From NCBI GenBank assembly GCA_903896595.1, contig CAITYL010000317.1:1-41491 (forward strand): a stretch of DNA of 41,491 bases. Reading direction: 5' to 3'. Made by a program: the position numbers and the translations under genes. Below are positions 4,252 to 34,415 of this stretch, piece after piece. The DNA comes from an uncultured Lentisphaerota bacterium (lineage in GTDB: Bacteria; Verrucomicrobiota; Lentisphaeria; Oligosphaerales; CAITYL01). Positions within the stretch are counted from its first letter, which is position 1, and every line of letters begins with the position of its first letter. The notes beneath the pieces were generated by a model that had not been told where the DNA came from, ran no database searches, and saw nothing but the letters and a program-made list of their open reading frames with translations.

Positions 4252-4505
4252 TACCACAAAGAACGCAAAGATCACAAAGATCAATTGCTCATTTTTAGAT
4301 TGTTTTGTCTTTGCGATCTCTGCGATCTTTGCGGTTAATTTTGGAATCAAGTTGAAGTGTGATTGGAATAAGATCTCACACGAAGACACGAAATCACGAA
4401 GAAATCAGAAAAATTGGGCACTTCTGGAAACCACATCTATGCGCCATATCTTCTCAACGCCCTTCAATTCTTCGTGCTCTTCATGTTCTTCATGGTGAAA
4501 ATCAG
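4252..4505. repeat. CACAAAGAT / CACGAAG short-period repeats filling the spacer
   Basis: Bases 4252-4282 hold 9-bp units of the CACAAAGAT type, and 4308-4338 hold the inverted counterpart (TTTGCGATC type), making a stem with a 25-nt loop. Bases 4376-4402 carry CACGAAG-type units. Bases 4470-4500 carry the inverse TTCATG/TTCGTG type, which reads CACCATGAAG on the minus strand just after the stop of the following minus-strand gene. The 298-base spacer shows no credible gene. Confidence 0.75.
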
Positions 4506-5650: not shown

Positions 5651-5880
5651 TGCCGGTTGGGAACCCCCTTTTGAGGAAAGGCGGTTCCCAAACCCTCCGT
5701 CAAACCTTTTTGTCTCTTTTTGCGGATTCCGCAGGCCGCCTCTGCTGCCCCAATCGTGGTCTATTGCACAGGAGCGGCCTGCGAAATCCGCAAAAGGGCA
5801 CCAAAAGTTTTAGGAAGGGGCTTGGGGAGCACCCTTTTTCAAAAGGGTGGCCCCAACAACAGTCATGCATCCGTTACCAC
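5651..5880. repeat. MITE-like palindromic repeat, copy B
   Basis: Second copy of the element at 987-1284. The first 60 bases are essentially identical to copy A. The inner hairpin keeps one mismatch. The right terminal arm (ACCCTTTTTC...AAAAGGGTGG) and the following CATGCAYCCGTTRCC block are shared too. It lies between the class II aldolase gene and the downstream URO-D-like gene and takes up nearly the whole 275-base spacer. Confidence 0.87.
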
Positions 5881-11745: not shown

Positions 11746-11993
11746 CCTTTCGCGGTCCTTAGCGTTCTTTCGCGGTTAATTTCTGTGGCAAAGGGCTTGC
11801 CGCCCGCCAGCTCGAAAACGTCAGGGTCGGAAGAGCGCGATGCAATCGCTTTGCTACAAGAGCATGCCGTCTGGTTTATTCACCATGAAGCGCATGAAGG
11901 TTATGAAGGTTTTTTGGGGGAGGCATGACGCCAACCCAAAACCCCTGATTTTAAGCTTCCCTTCTTCATGATCTTCATGTCCTTCATGGTGGA
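11746..11993. repeat. CATGAAG / CTTTCGCGG short-period repeats with inverted arms
   Basis: Bases 11746-11780 hold CTTTCGCGG-type units. Bases 11881-11909 hold three ATGAAG units starting CACCATGAAG, and 11961-11993 hold their inverse ending CTTCATGGTGG, giving an inverted pair around a loop of about 50 bases. These fill most of the 509-base gap 11562-12070. The short frame at 11731-11928 has no protein-like character and is not called. Confidence 0.72.
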
Positions 11994-27971: not shown

Positions 27972-29969
27972 TCAGGCCGCCAGAAGCGGGGCGGGGCAGC
28001 CAAAGGTTTCGGCCACCGCCCGGAACAATTCGTCCTCATCGACGCTGATGACGCCATCGCTGGCGATGGCCGCCGCAGCCGCTTCGAGCAGGCGCCGCTG
28101 AATGGCCGGCACGGCCTGGGTCAGGAGCGTCAGGGCGGCGTCGACTTGGGGCAGGCCGCACGCGGCGGCCGGCGGCAGGGTCCACGACCGGCCATCGTCA
28201 CCCATTTGTTGGACGGCGGCGGCAAAGGCGCTGGCGGCGGCCGCTTCCGTGTCGGCCCCGGTGCGGGCCAGGGCGCCCAGCAGGCAGGCGGCTTCCGGTT
28301 GCACACCTTTTATGGAGTAGTATTGGCGAAGCCGTGGCGGCGCCTGGGCGGACCGCGGGTCCAGCCGTTGGTCGGCCAGCCGCAGCAACAGATATTCGAA
28401 GAGGTCGATTTCGCCGTCGGCGCGGGCTAGGGCGCCCAGCAGATCACAGACGATTTGGCGGGCGGGGGCGGGCTGGCCGGCCAGGGTGGCCGCCGCCAGA
28501 TCGAGCAAGGGCAGGCGTGCGGCCCGTGGCAAGGTGCCGCCCACCGGTTCCAGGCCGGCCACGGCGTCCCGCCAGTTCGCCGGCGCCCGCTGGCGCAGCA
28601 GTGTCTCCTGCACCGCCCGCGCCGGAGTGCCGGGCGGCGCCAACAGCAGGCCGATCATCACGGCGGCCGCGCCCTGCGGATCGCGGGCGGCGACGCGCCA
28701 GGCCGGCGGCAGGCCCGCCAAGCGGGCGGCGGCCCCGGCCATGGCCGTGACGGGGGGGGCACCAATCCGCGCGGCGGCGGCGGCCGGCGACAACCGCCGC
28801 GCCGGGGTTGTGGTTTCAGCCGCGGTCATCATGGACGCCCCCGCCAGACCGGCGGTAAGACCCGTAACAAGTTCCGGAGCAGCTGGATCGGTGTCGGCGT
28901 CGCGGTCGGCGGCCGGATCCGCCGCCCCTGCCCCGGCGGGGTCCAGGCGCCGGAGCCGGTCGCCAAGCGGCGGGTGGGTGGCGAACCAGTCACCCCAGGA
29001 CGCACTGAGGGCATTGGCGAAAAACAGATGGGAGGCAATCCGGGCCTGGGCGCTGTCCAGCCGGCTGCCGCTGACTTGCCGGGCGATTTTCCGCAATGCG
29101 CCGGCCAGGCCGCCGGGATTGCGCGTGAACTGCACCGCCGCCGCATCGGCCAAAAATTCCCGCTGCCGCGACACGGCCGCCTGGATCAGCCGCGCAAAGA
29201 AGACGCCAATGCCGCCGATGACCAGCAGCGCCAGCCCGATCAGGAGCACGGCGACCAGCGCCCCCCCGCCCTTCTTGTTGTCATCGCCGCCGGAGCGTCG
29301 GCTGGAGGACGAGGAGGTCCCACCAAAGGACAGCACCCGTAGCACGGCATAGCCGACCAGGGCGATCAACAAAATGCCATTGAGCACTCCCAGCAGCCGC
29401 AAATTCAAGCGCATGTCGCCGTTTTGGATATGGCTGAATTCATGGGCAACCACGCCTTGCAATTCGTCCCGGGTGAGCCGTTCCAGGCAGCCGCGAGTTA
29501 CCCCGATGACGGCATGGTCCGCGGTAAAGCCGGCGGCAAAGGCGTTGATGCCCGCCTCGTCGCCCAGCAGATACACCCGCGGCACCGGCAGGCCGGCGGC
29601 GATGGCCATTTCCTCGACCACGTTGAGCAGGCGGCGTTCGGCGGGATCCGTGCTGTCCGGCGCCACCCGGGAGCCGCCCAGTTGTTCGGCCAGGGTGGCG
29701 CCGCCATCCCCGCTGAGCTGGAGGATCTTGTAGCCGGCGCCCGAACCGATGAGGCCCAGCGTCAGAGCCGTGCTGCACAGGAACCACAACGGGTCCCACA
29801 AGCGGCGCGGATCCGCCAGATAGGGGTCCCAACCGCCGGCCTGCCGGTGAAAAATCAGGAAGGTCGCCACGTACACCGCGGCGACAATCAGCACCACCGC
29901 CGAGACATAATAGAGCAGCAACAGCCGCGTGTTGCGCCGGGCCAATTCCTGATGTTGGAAGAAATCCAT
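27972..29969 (-). CDS. M48-family (HtpX-like) membrane metalloprotease with C-terminal extension
   Basis: 665-residue membrane zinc protease. Two N-terminal membrane segments (about 17-40 and 61-80) precede the catalytic HEFSH at 176-180, where E177 is the general base. Two more hydrophobic segments (192-215, 235-262) precede the third ligand region SRQREFLADAAA with E271. After about residue 350 comes an Ala/Pro-rich linker and a helical region of about 290 residues containing LARADGEIDLFEYLLLRL, recalling TerB-type acidic helices; this extension is longer than in E. coli HtpX. The ATG is directly preceded by five 8-bp repeat units and has no ribosome-binding site. It follows lemA in the same direction, a common pairing in membrane quality control. 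Confidence 0.92.
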   Translation of the reverse strand: MDFFQHQELARRNTRLLLLYYVSAVVLIVAAVYVATFLIFHRQAGGWDPYLADPRRLWDPLWFLCSTALTLGLIGSGAGYKILQLSGDGGATLAEQLGGSRVAPDSTDPAERRLLNVVEEMAIAAGLPVPRVYLLGDEAGINAFAAGFTADHAVIGVTRGCLERLTRDELQGVVAHEFSHIQNGDMRLNLRLLGVLNGILLIALVGYAVLRVLSFGGTSSSSSRRSGGDDNKKGGGALVAVLLIGLALLVIGGIGVFFARLIQAAVSRQREFLADAAAVQFTRNPGGLAGALRKIARQVSGSRLDSAQARIASHLFFANALSASWGDWFATHPPLGDRLRRLDPAGAGAADPAADRDADTDPAAPELVTGLTAGLAGASMMTAAETTTPARRLSPAAAAARIGAPPVTAMAGAAARLAGLPPAWRVAARDPQGAAAVMIGLLLAPPGTPARAVQETLLRQRAPANWRDAVAGLEPVGGTLPRAARLPLLDLAAATLAGQPAPARQIVCDLLGALARADGEIDLFEYLLLRLADQRLDPRSAQAPPRLRQYYSIKGVQPEAACLLGALARTGADTEAAAASAFAAAVQQMGDDGRSWTLPPAAACGLPQVDAALTLLTQAVPAIQRRLLEAAAAAIASDGVISVDEDELFRAVAETFGCPAPLLAA

Positions 29970-30009
29970 GGTTAGGTGGTTGAGGGGTTGGGTGGTTGGG
30001 TGGTTGAGG
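29970..30009 (-). repeat. 8-bp tandem repeat abutting the protease start codon
   Basis: Five consecutive 8-mers of the GGTTGRGK type in perfect register (29970-30009). On the minus strand the last unit ends exactly at the ATG of the M48 protease gene, so the repeat occupies the place of the ribosome-binding site. Confidence 0.88.
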
Positions 30010-30034
30010 GGTGCGAAAATCGGCCTGATGAGGG

Positions 30035-30189
30035 AGGACCATTAGGACCTTTGGGACCATTATGACCATTGGGACGACCGGCCGCTCAACCGCGGTACCA
30101 GGCGGCACCGGTTGTCGGATGCCGCGCCTCCCGCCGTCCTAATAGTCCTAATGGTCCCAATGGTCTTAATGGTCCTAATGGTCCTAACG
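30035..30189. repeat. 9-bp tandem repeats in two inverted arms (GTCCTAATG family)
   Basis: The left arm at 30035-30079 has five units of the AGGACCATT type. The right arm at 30136-30189 has six units of the GTCCTAATG type. Each is in perfect 9-bp register, and the arms are reverse complements of each other around a 56-base GC-rich loop. The element lies between lemA and the M48 protease gene and would form a very long stem or cruciform. Confidence 0.88.
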
Positions 30190-30246
30190 GCGCAGCGGTG
30201 CGCTTACCACTACTGCCGGCCGGCCCGTGGCGCCCCGTTTCGCCGG

Positions 30247-30846
30247 TTACGTGAAGGCAACCTTGGGGGCTTCGCGCTCGGCGACGTTGGTGAGTTCGAA
30301 CAGTTCGGCGGGACCAAACCCAAAGACGCCGGCAAGCAGGACGGCCGGGAAGCGTTCGCGGGCGGTGTTGTAGACCATGACCGCGTCATTGAAGGCCTGG
30401 CGGGCAAACGCGACTTTGTTTTCGGTCGAGGCCAATTCTTCCGACAACTGGGCCATGTTCTGGTTCGCCTTCAAGTCCGGATACGCCTCGGCCAGGGCGA
30501 ACAGCTTGCTGAGTACGCCGGTCAGGGCGCCTTCGGCTCCGGCCAGGCCGGCCATGGCCTTGGGGTCGCCGGGATTGATGGCGGCCTGAGCGCTGGCATG
30601 GGCCGCCTGATTGCGGGCCTGGATCACGGCCTCCAGCGTCCCGCGCTCATGCTTGAGATACCCCTTGGCGGTCTCCACCAGGTTGGGAATCAGGTCGTAA
30701 CGGCGTTTGAGCTGCACATCGATCTGGGCGTAGGCGTTTTTGTAGCGATTGCGGTAGGTGACCAGTCCATTGTAGATGCCGATGATCGCCAACAAGATCA
30801 CCACCATCACCACCACGATCACCAAACCAAAGACCATGATACTCAT
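30247..30846 (-). CDS. lemA: LemA family protein
   Basis: 199-residue LemA-type protein: one N-terminal membrane segment (VFGLVIVVVMVVILLAIIGI), then a long helical bundle with the typical YNGLVTYRNRYKNAYAQIDV and RRYDLIPNLVETAKGYLKHE blocks. LemA proteins are membrane-anchored with an extracytoplasmic helical domain of unclear role and often accompany HtpX or YgcG genes. The ATG at 30846 has AGGAGG 8 bases before it, which excludes an in-frame GTG 27 bases upstream. It precedes the M48 protease with 277 bases of repeats between them. Confidence 0.95.
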   Translation of the reverse strand: MSIMVFGLVIVVVMVVILLAIIGIYNGLVTYRNRYKNAYAQIDVQLKRRYDLIPNLVETAKGYLKHERGTLEAVIQARNQAAHASAQAAINPGDPKAMAGLAGAEGALTGVLSKLFALAEAYPDLKANQNMAQLSEELASTENKVAFARQAFNDAVMVYNTARERFPAVLLAGVFGFGPAELFELTNVAEREAPKVAFT

Positions 30847-31028
30847 GCGCGGATCCTCCTCGGTCACGGGCAACAGGCCAAGTCCTGCGCCCGAACCCCC
30901 GAATATACACCTGAATTCAGGCCGCTGCGCACGGTCGTCGAACCACTAAGCACGATGCGCAAGGCTTTCATTGAACCGTCTGAATTTCAGCAAGTGCGGC
31001 GTTGTGAAATGGGGCGCTATGGTATCGG

Positions 31029-31063
31029 CGTTGCCGGCCGGCGGGGCAGCCGCGCCGGCAACG
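31029..31063 (+). promoter_or_regulatory. Long hairpin in the carB leader
   Basis: CGTTGCCGGC (31029-31038) pairs perfectly with GCCGGCAACG (31054-31063), and CGGC/GCCG inside extends the stem, leaving a 6-base loop and a single bulged C. It lies 38 bases before the carB start. No T-tract follows. It may regulate or stabilise the carB transcript; a role in pyrimidine or arginine control is not shown. Confidence 0.5.
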
Positions 31064-31101
31064 TCCTCAATCCATAACCTGACACCGGGAGGTTGGTCGT
31101 C

Positions 31102-34100
31102 ATGGCAAAGCTGGCTGGCATCGACAAGGTCATGATCATCGGCTCGGGGCCGATCATCATTGGACAGGCGTGCGAATTTGACTATTCGGGCACCCAGGCG
31201 TGCAAAGCGCTGCGGGCGCTCGGCTACCAGATCGTCCTGGTCAACTCCAATCCTGCCACGATCATGACCGATCCGGGCATGGCGGACAGCACCTACATTG
31301 AGGCGCTCAATCTCGAGACCCTCGAGAAGATCATTGCCAAGGAACGGCCGGACGCCCTGCTGCCCAACTTGGGCGGCCAGTCCGCCCTGAACCTTTCCTC
31401 CGAACTGGGCAAGGCGGGCATTTTGGAGAAGTACGGGGTCAGGGTCATCGGCGTCAAGCTGGACGCCATTGAACGCGGCGAGGACCGCATGGCGTTCAAG
31501 GAAACCATGACCAAGCTCGGCATTGAGATGCCGAAGAGCGAGATCGCCTACACCATCGCCGAGGCGGAGGCGGTCGCCGCCAGGCTGGGCTATCCGGTGG
31601 TGATCCGCCCGGCCTACACCATGGGCGGCACCGGCGGCGGCCTGGTGTACAACGTTGAGGAACTGCGCACCATCGTCTCCCGCGGCATTGCCGCCAGCTT
31701 GGTCGGCCAGGTGCTGGTCGAGGAATCGGTGCTCGGCTGGGAGGAGTTGGAGCTGGAAGTCGTCCGCGACGAAAAGAATCAACTGATCACGGTTTGTTTC
31801 ATTGAGAACATTGACGCCATGGGCGTCCACACCGGCGATTCGTTTTGCGCCGCGCCAATGCTGACCATCGCCCCGGAGGTGCAGCGGCGCCTCCAGCAGT
31901 ATTCCTACGCCATCGTCGAGGCGATCGAAGTCATTGGCGGCACCAACGTGCAGTTCGCGCACAACCCCAAGGACGGGCGCATCGTCGTCATTGAGATCAA
32001 CCCGCGCACCTCGCGCTCCTCCGCCCTGGCTTCCAAGGCCACCGGCTTTCCGATCGCCCTGGTCTCCGCCAAGCTGGCGGGTGGCCTGACCCTGGACCAG
32101 TTCCCCTATTGGCGCGACGGCTCGCTGGAGAAGTACACCCCTTCCGGCGACTACGTGGTGATCAAATTCGCCCGTTGGGCGTTTGAGAAATTCAAGGGCG
32201 TGCCCGACCAACTCGGCACCCAGATGCGCGCCGTGGGCGAGGTCATGAGCATCGGCAAAACCTACAAGGAAGCGTACCAAAAGGCCATTCGTTCCCTGGA
32301 GAACGGCCGGCACGGCCTCGGCTTCGCCAAAAATTTCAACCGCCTAACCGTGGACGAGTTGCTGGCGTTGCTGGTCGAAGCCTCCAGCGAGCGCCAGTTC
32401 ATCCTCTATGAGGCGCTGCGCAAGGGCGCCGACTTGCAGAAACTGCACCAGATGACCCACATCAAGATCTGGTTTCTGGAGCAGATGAAGGAACTGGTGC
32501 TGCTCGAAGAGGAACTCCTCCAGCACCGGGGCAAGCCCTTGCCCGAGGCGCTGCTCAGGCGCGCCAAGCAAGACGGTTTCGCCGACAAGTATCTGGCCAA
32601 GATCCTCGCCGTGCCCGAGAGACAGCTTCGCGCCCAGCGCCAACAGGCCGGCATCGTCGAAGGCTGGCACGCCGTGCCGGTCAGCGGCGTCGAAAACGCC
32701 TGCTATTATTATTCCACTTACAACGCCCCGGACGCCTCCACCGCCTCGGCCGCCAAGAAGAAGGTCATGATCCTCGGCGGCGGTCCCAACCGCATCGGCC
32801 AGGGGATCGAGTTCGACTATTGCTGTTGCCACGCCGCCTATGCCCTGCGGGAAATGGGCTACGAGACGGTCATGGTCAACTGCAACCCCGAGACCGTCTC
32901 CACCGATTACGACACCTCCAACAAGCTCTACTTCGAGCCGCTTACCGTTGAGGATGTGCTGCAGATTTACGCCAAGGAGCAGCCGGTCGGCGTCATCTGC
33001 CAGTTCGGCGGCCAGACCCCGCTCAACATCGCCCGCGAACTGGCCGAGAACGGCGTCACCATTCTCGGCACCTCGGTCGACACCATCGACCTGGCCGAGG
33101 ATCGCGACCTGTTCCGCAAGCTGATGGACCGCCTCGGCATGCCGATGGCGGAAAGCGGCATGGCCACCACCTTCGACGAAGCACGCGTCATCGCCGCGCG
33201 GATTGGGTATCCGCTCATGCTCCGCCCCTCCTTCGTGCTCGGCGGGCGCGGCATGGAAATCATCTATGACGAGGCGATGCTGCGCGACTACATCGCCGCG
33301 GCGACGGACGTCACCCCCGACCGCCCGATTCTGATCGACAAATATCTGGACAACGCCCTGGAGACCGAGGCCGACGCCATCGCCGACGGCATCGACGCCT
33401 TTGTCCCCGCCGTGATGGAGCACATCGAGCAGGCCGGCATCCACTCCGGCGACTCCGCCTGCGTTCTGCCGCCGGTCGGCATCCCGGCCCAACATGTCGC
33501 GACGATCAAGGAGTACACCCGGCGCATCGCCCAGGAAATGAAGGTCGTCGGGCTGATGAATATCCAGTACGCCATCTACCAGGACCGGGTCTACATTCTG
33601 GAGGCGAATCCGCGGGCCTCGCGCACGGTGCCGCTGGTGTCCAAGGTCTGCGGCCTGTCCATGGCCCGCCTGGCCACTCAGATCATGCTCGGCAAGAAGC
33701 TCGCCGACTTCAAGCTCAAGGAAATCCAGGTGCCGTACTTCGGAGTCAAGGAAGCGGTCTTCCCGTTCAACATGTTCCCCGAAGCCGACCCGGTGCTCGG
33801 CCCGGAAATGCGCTCCACTGGCGAAGTCCTGGGGCTGGCCGACTCCTTCGGCCTGGCCTACTTCAAGGCCGAGGACGCCGCCAAGGCGACCCTGCCGCTC
33901 ACCGGCACCGTCTACCTCTCCATCAATCCGCGCGACCGTAATGCCGATGTGGTGACCGTTGCCCGGCGCCTGACGGAATTGGGTTTCAACCTTCGCGCCA
34001 CCGCCGGCACCCTGGCCTTCCTCCAGCAGCACGGCATCGCCGGCGGCCGCATCCTCAAACTGCATGAGGGGCGCCCGAATGTGCTCGATGCCCTCAAGAA

Positions 34101-34330: not shown

Positions 34331-34373
34331 GTCTAACGGTGAAATCTGTTGCAAGATGCGCATGATTTTAAAT

Positions 34374-34415
34374 CGAACATTCAACATCGAACATTCAACA
34401 TTGAACATCCAATTA
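34374..34415. repeat. 7-bp tandem repeat (YSAACAT), same family as 2487-2580
   Basis: Five units CGAACAT/TCAACAT/TGAACAT in perfect 7-bp register followed by one degenerate unit. A short inverse counterpart (ACGTTGG, ACATGG) follows at about 34430-34443. The units are the reverse complement of the ATGTTSR units upstream of murJ. Confidence 0.83.

Follow-up and report, generated by a model that had tools for sequence, protein, structure and literature searches.

A hairpin of facing 9-nt arrays between lemA and an M48 peptidase gene as a probable copy of a dispersed, REPIN-like repeat with a non-transposase partner protein

The window analyzed here is a 41,491-nt stretch of DNA from an uncultured Lentisphaerota bacterium (contig CAITYL010000317.1), in which two inverted arrays of a 9-nt unit face each other between lemA and an M48 peptidase gene. 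The stem formed by these arrays is probably a copy of a dispersed, REPIN-like, non-autonomous hairpin repeat that has a non-transposase partner protein and that landed in the operon by chance. In the mechanism we favor, a hairpin repeat, its arms being short arrays of 9-nt units inverted relative to each other, would have inserted into a normally tight lemA-M48 pair. The protein-coding relative of the repeat family would be TIGR04258, a four-helix-bundle protein that has a "suffix" domain at its C terminus and may recognize the unit in DNA or RNA. The hairpin would be, or would have been, copied and inserted with the help of this protein and of some nuclease or polymerase. If transcribed, the window element would separate two cistrons by a strong stem. 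That the repeat moves, that the protein binds it and that lemA or the protease is affected at all are inferences from the patterns described below.

The 9-nt unit of the stem is GGACCATTA-like. The left arm (30035-30075, plus strand) has about 4.6 copies of AGGACCATT, and the right arm (30136-30189, minus strand) about 5.8 copies of the inverse unit GTCCTAATG, both located by Tandem Repeats Finder and a repeat finder. As scored by Tandem Repeats Finder, the left array (30035-30075, 4.6 copies) has 78% matches and the right array (30136-30187, 5.8 copies) 88%, with zero indels in either. The facing arrays described in the sequence-only reading are real, at about five and six copies, but the loop, put at 56 bases there, measures 60 nt between the arrays, or 58 nt in the best ungapped pairing. 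This GC-rich loop (30076-30135, no strand assigned) was compared with those of related copies, also in alignment A2; where it borders the left array, its minus-strand reading, GCGGCCGGTCGTCCC, corresponds to GGCGGCCGGTTGTCCC in those copies. The perfect register claimed for the arms holds for the unit spacing, which is exactly 9 in each arm, but not for the pairing, since the arms are 85-89% complementary. Registers shifted by one or two units pair about equally well (repeat-finder pairs I1-I3), which makes the stem slippery. Mirroring of the two arms unit by unit was considered and set aside; it is weak overall (19/400 permutations are as high) and absent in the window copy (p 0.47). The potential to form a long RNA stem or a DNA cruciform is borne out, as both strands of 30025-30200 fold far better than shuffled sequences: the minus strand at -93.6 kcal/mol (z -7.6) and the plus strand at -94.4 kcal/mol (z -8.0), with none of 200 shuffles as stable in either case.

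In the window, the upstream gene of the pair is lemA (30247-30873, minus strand, start according to the ORF list; PF04011, E 1.9e-55), whose stop codon is 57 nt from the arrays. The M48 peptidase gene lies downstream of the element (27972-29969, minus strand; PF01435, E 2.1e-28); the best named match of its product is from a Lentisphaerota MAG (42% identity), followed by Verrucomicrobiota proteins (42-44%). A second array, unpaired and with a unit of about 8 nt (GGTTGAGG/GGTTGGGT), was found by Tandem Repeats Finder at 29970-30012 (plus strand) and adjoins the M48 start codon. Arms of the same unit type flank a TIGR02436 gene on contig C50 (L163), and one such arm matches 18 bins of the sampled genome. 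For comparison, we used 31 other loci in which this M48 gene follows lemA on the same strand; five further loci gave no lemA match. The lemA-M48 gap is 277 nt in the window, at most 152 nt in 27 of the 31 loci and 263-1305 nt in the other four. The family is represented by only one other genome (G001), which is of another genus, and there the two genes abut (gap -1). A GGACC array was seen in none of the 31 gaps when these were read by eye; in two Verrucomicrobiota records (L036 and L038), a small inverted repeat of another kind was noted by eye in the gap. Since the gaps elsewhere are mostly short and show no GGACC array, the 277-nt gap of the window is best read as a repeat insertion into a tight gene pair.

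The repeat is dispersed in the genome. A degenerate three-unit GGACC pattern has 185+126 genome matches with up to two mismatches, compared to 9+27 for the reversed control. With up to one mismatch, the 100 places listed reduce to 51 sites, and at 11 of these both orientations are present. Hairpins were counted by an inverted-repeat scan in a sample of 807,511 bases of the same genome, comprising the window, 25 stretches picked regardless of repeats (L061-L080, L096-L100) and 35 picked for pattern matches (L081-L095, L101-L120). The scan found 195 hairpins, compared to none in one order-1 Markov shuffle per stretch; such hairpins are far beyond chance, yet common in this genome. The GGAC-unit type accounts for 32 of the 195, and 31 of these 32 copies are intergenic, compared to 343 of 2000 random 140-base pieces, genes being called by a simple codon-based method. 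The family is thus a multi-copy, extragenic, hairpin-forming inverted doublet with stable folds, as REPs and REPINs are. Two subfamilies can be distinguished. In subfamily 1 (11 copies compared, including the two flanking a gene on contig C25; 10 in alignment A1), the loop motif and the outer ends are common, and homology ends about 30 nt outside the arms. In subfamily 2 (eight copies compared, including that of the window), the loop-edge and right-end motifs are common. Common loop edges and outer ends of related copies indicate that the copies spread as units. Stem covariation was also considered and is modest, with two-sided changes in 6/37 pairs of A1 and 3/30 pairs of A2; the pairing that is kept mostly reflects the invariant core of the unit.

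That arms should be paired in relatives, as the sequence-only reading expected, holds only in part. GGACC arrays are unpaired at 11 sites of three distant relatives (G020, G026 and G032), a minimum of three sites lying close to the end of a contig, but arrays flanking a partner gene are inverted across at least one such gene in 20 of the 32 genomes evaluated. In G020, long unpaired GGACC(C/T)GTC arrays are found near the ends of contigs C12, C18, C21, C39, C48, C51, C55, C70 and C71, and probably break the assembly. A TIGR04258 gene of the same genome (L215) has the related unit GGTCGGACA.

These results bear on the role in the lemA-protease transcript that the sequence-only reading implied. 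An inter-cistronic RNA stem that attenuates, terminates or protects the operon transcript would suit the very stable fold, obtained on either strand, and the position of the element between two co-directional genes; moreover, inter-cistronic stems, such as REP elements, stabilize upstream mRNA. The array, however, was not seen in the same gap of the 31 other loci, and the window element has neither an intrinsic terminator (a GC-rich stem followed by a T-run) nor an Rfam family; the only terminator-like site in 29900-31150 is away from the element, 1.2 being expected in shuffles. No sigma-70-like promoter was found at the element. Members of the family also lie in divergent gaps: among the 29 copies with both neighbors called, 14 are in co-directional, nine in convergent and six in divergent gaps, the background (293 gaps of at least 150 nt) being 187, 48 and 58, respectively. 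Divergent gaps are thus as well represented among the copies (6/29) as in the background (58/293), which means that there is no 3'-end bias. Operon-specific regulation was therefore rejected as the main reading and is very unlikely. The element is not a feature of the lemA-M48 operon, and the data do not support a regulatory stem or terminator specific to it.

The candidate partner comes from a family of small proteins well represented in this genome, which has 16 matches to PF05635 (23S_rRNA_IVP) and seven to PF13366. We take PF05635 to be equivalent to the S23p ORF of 23S rRNA intervening sequences. Many of these genes are bracketed by short-unit arrays in inverted orientation, the unit mostly differing from gene to gene, and the longer proteins of this type carry the NCBIfam domains TIGR04258 and TIGR02436. 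On contig C25, a TIGR04258 ("four helix bundle suffix") gene lies between two subfamily-1 hairpins (L168 1057-1151 and 1863-1957). The unit is therefore common to the arrays flanking a resident TIGR04258 gene, the window copy being of the related subfamily 2. The N-terminal part of the C25 gene reads as a frame of 221 aa, whereas the suffix is matched in another one; the gene is broken or misassembled. No catalytic domain was found in the TIGR04258 partner, and the TIGR04258 protein of L169 has no significant match to a solved structure (best E 0.83). For the short TIGR02436 protein of L162, the matches are the uncharacterized proteins 2gsc and 2rld. At two loci (L167 1045-1770 and L174 1129-1902), the TIGR04258 reading frame contains the cognate arrays, which seem to have been inserted in frame between the N-terminal and suffix parts.

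Bracketing by inverted arrays is not confined to the C25 gene. A search of 40 genomes, the present one included, gave 102 TIGR04258 matches; 77 loci were tested, of which seven had too little flanking DNA. With a score of at least 15 as the threshold for the best inverted match between the flanks, 38 of the 70 evaluable loci qualify (10/13 in the present genome, 28/57 in others), compared to 7/300 random positions in the present genome and 0/78 positions in other genomes. One of the ten in the present genome (L180) has an arm of the REP type and not a 9-nt array. The remaining 32 of the 70 loci have no inverted pair at this threshold. When orientation is disregarded, an array of period 7-10 is present in both flanks at 37 of 59 loci, compared to 5/300 controls (65 of the 77 loci were included, 59 with enough flank). 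The arms contain GGAC or GTCC in 24/38 cases, compared to 32% of random pieces of equal length, and their period is 9 in 21/38 and 10 in 7/38. Two other families behave similarly in the same genomes: inverted arms scoring at least 15 are found at 21/26 GxxExxY loci and 18/27 TIGR02436 loci (30 fetched for each, the denominators being those with enough flank), compared to 3/135 control positions. Typical periods are mostly 9 for TIGR04258, 7, 8 or 14 for TIGR02436 and 9-10 nt for GxxExxY. Among six IVP genes of the present genome (L161-L166), five have inverted arms on both sides with a score of at least 17; the right flank of L164 is 131 nt.

Other repeats of the window and the genome may be listed alongside these. 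Paired short-unit arrays at 4253-4335 and 4377-4498 (CACAAAGATC/TCTTTGCGA and CACGAAGA/CTTCGTG) have units resembling those around GxxExxY genes of the same genome (L154, L156). Around the GxxExxY gene on contig C192 (L154 886-2556), several repeated TCGCCAAGA hairpins are found on either side. Paired CATGAAG/CTTCATG arrays of period 9 lie at 11881-11991, and this unit also flanks a broken GxxExxY gene (L158). A non-periodic, REP-like hairpin (TTTTGCGGATTCCGCAGGCCGC) is present at 1054-1131 and 5702-5811, with 35 copies in the 807-kb sample, all intergenic. A second dispersed hairpin (GGGAGCCGCCCGTCCTCGGGCGGA; L064 8-147, L074 31-170 and others), whose arms are nearly perfect and whose loop is mostly close to 87 nt long, has 15 copies in the sample. 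An array of period 14/7 (ATCGAACATTCAAC) lies between genes at 34372-34412, with paired versions elsewhere (e.g., L066 4542, L073 9442).

The more alike two TIGR04258 proteins are, the more alike are their units, and this holds across genera as well. The correlation of protein identity with unit similarity has r 0.52 over 528 pairs, and with r 0.47 (Mantel) when only pairs from different genera are considered (n=482); none of 2000 permutations is as high in either case. The set consisted of 33 loci, that is, the 37 left after omitting L180, minus four without the protein motif. Descent of a gene together with its flanks, vertical or horizontal, could by itself give such a correlation. The arms also recur in the genome where their gene resides: 17 arms of the genome's own genes match its DNA in a median of three bins (40 for GGACC, a count inflated by the enrichment of the sample for GGACC sites), compared to a median of zero for 28 arms from other genomes, the highest exceptions being 9 and 22. 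The one-sided p for own against foreign arms is 0.0017 with all 17 own arms and 0.025 with the 10 TIGR04258 arms.

Two further explanations were weighed. The arrays could be ordinary microsatellites, grown by slippage and facing each other by chance, without mobility or a partner. The units do vary, any 9-nt register pairs, and long arrays of similar units on one side only occur in distant relatives, all as expected of slippage. However, slippage would not account for loop edges and outer ends common to unrelated sites, for the bracketing of three specific protein families or for a unit that tracks the protein, and we regard this explanation as unlikely. Alternatively, the hairpins could be REP/REPIN elements mobilized by a Y1 (RAYT) transposase, given that the organization is the same (hairpin, intergenic, multi-copy) and that the genome has 10 Y1_Tnp matches. 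Linkage of the family to a Y1 gene was not seen here: no contig is common to the Y1_Tnp matches and the 51 GGACC sites, the cognate gene is TIGR04258 and not Y1_Tnp, and two genomes with many GGACC arrays (G026 and G038, 88% and 85% complete) have no Y1_Tnp match. Movement by a Y1 transposase is thus hardly probable at all.

Spread of the hairpin as a non-autonomous repeat with a TIGR04258 partner remains the reading that we consider likely. More tentatively, it may be one case of a wider phenomenon, in which TIGR04258, TIGR02436 and GxxExxY would each be the coding partner of its own inverted array. These would form one class of mobile gene-array modules spreading without a known transposase, possibly via protein-bound hairpin RNA or single-stranded DNA, and the window stem would be a non-autonomous copy. 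The gene-array pair suggests an unrecognized kind of mobile gene-and-repeat pair; no paper linking TIGR04258, TIGR02436 or GxxExxY to such arrays was among those listed for the terms used in the open-license literature. The family names examined for the four-helix-bundle (IVP/S23-like) and GxxExxY proteins give no functional description. A gene-specific bracketing array whose unit tracks the protein offers a direct, testable hypothesis on what these proteins bind, and a new dispersal system in which they may take part. Many degenerate 7-10 nt intergenic repeats in this order would thereby be explained as well, which otherwise resemble random microsatellites or putative regulatory stems.

Several known systems invite comparison. 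For the protein family, the closest is the 23S rRNA intervening sequence of Coxiella with its S23p ORF, which is described as a selfish element and as excised by RNase III (PMC4990558). Unlike that sequence, the elements here are intergenic (the window copy being in the lemA-M48 gap) and not in rRNA, their stems are short-unit arrays, and most copies are without an ORF; the window loop is too short to hold an IVP/S23p ORF. There is a weak profile likeness to Avd of diversity-generating retroelements, in that a short TIGR02436 protein of this genome matches the Avd model with an E of 5e-4, which is below the cut-off of the model. In a CRISPR survey, 23S rRNA IVP is named in the legend of a figure on adaptation-module associations (PMC10910872). 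CRISPR arrays are likewise repeats near a small gene, but the units here are head-to-tail, with no spacers or unique DNA between them. In organization, the closest analogy is with REPINs and RAYTs, described in PMC3116915 as short inverted hairpin doublets, multi-copy and extragenic, with a specific associated gene nearby. Here too there are many short hairpin copies and a cognate gene that has this sequence on either side. However, the arms here are tandem arrays of a 9-nt unit, whereas each arm of a REPIN is one palindromic REP, a 20-40 nt palindrome ended by a GTAG or CGTC tag (PMC3733652). Moreover, the partner is a four-helix-bundle protein, unlike RAYT, a tyrosine transposase, and several paralogous pairs that differ in their units occur side by side in one genome.
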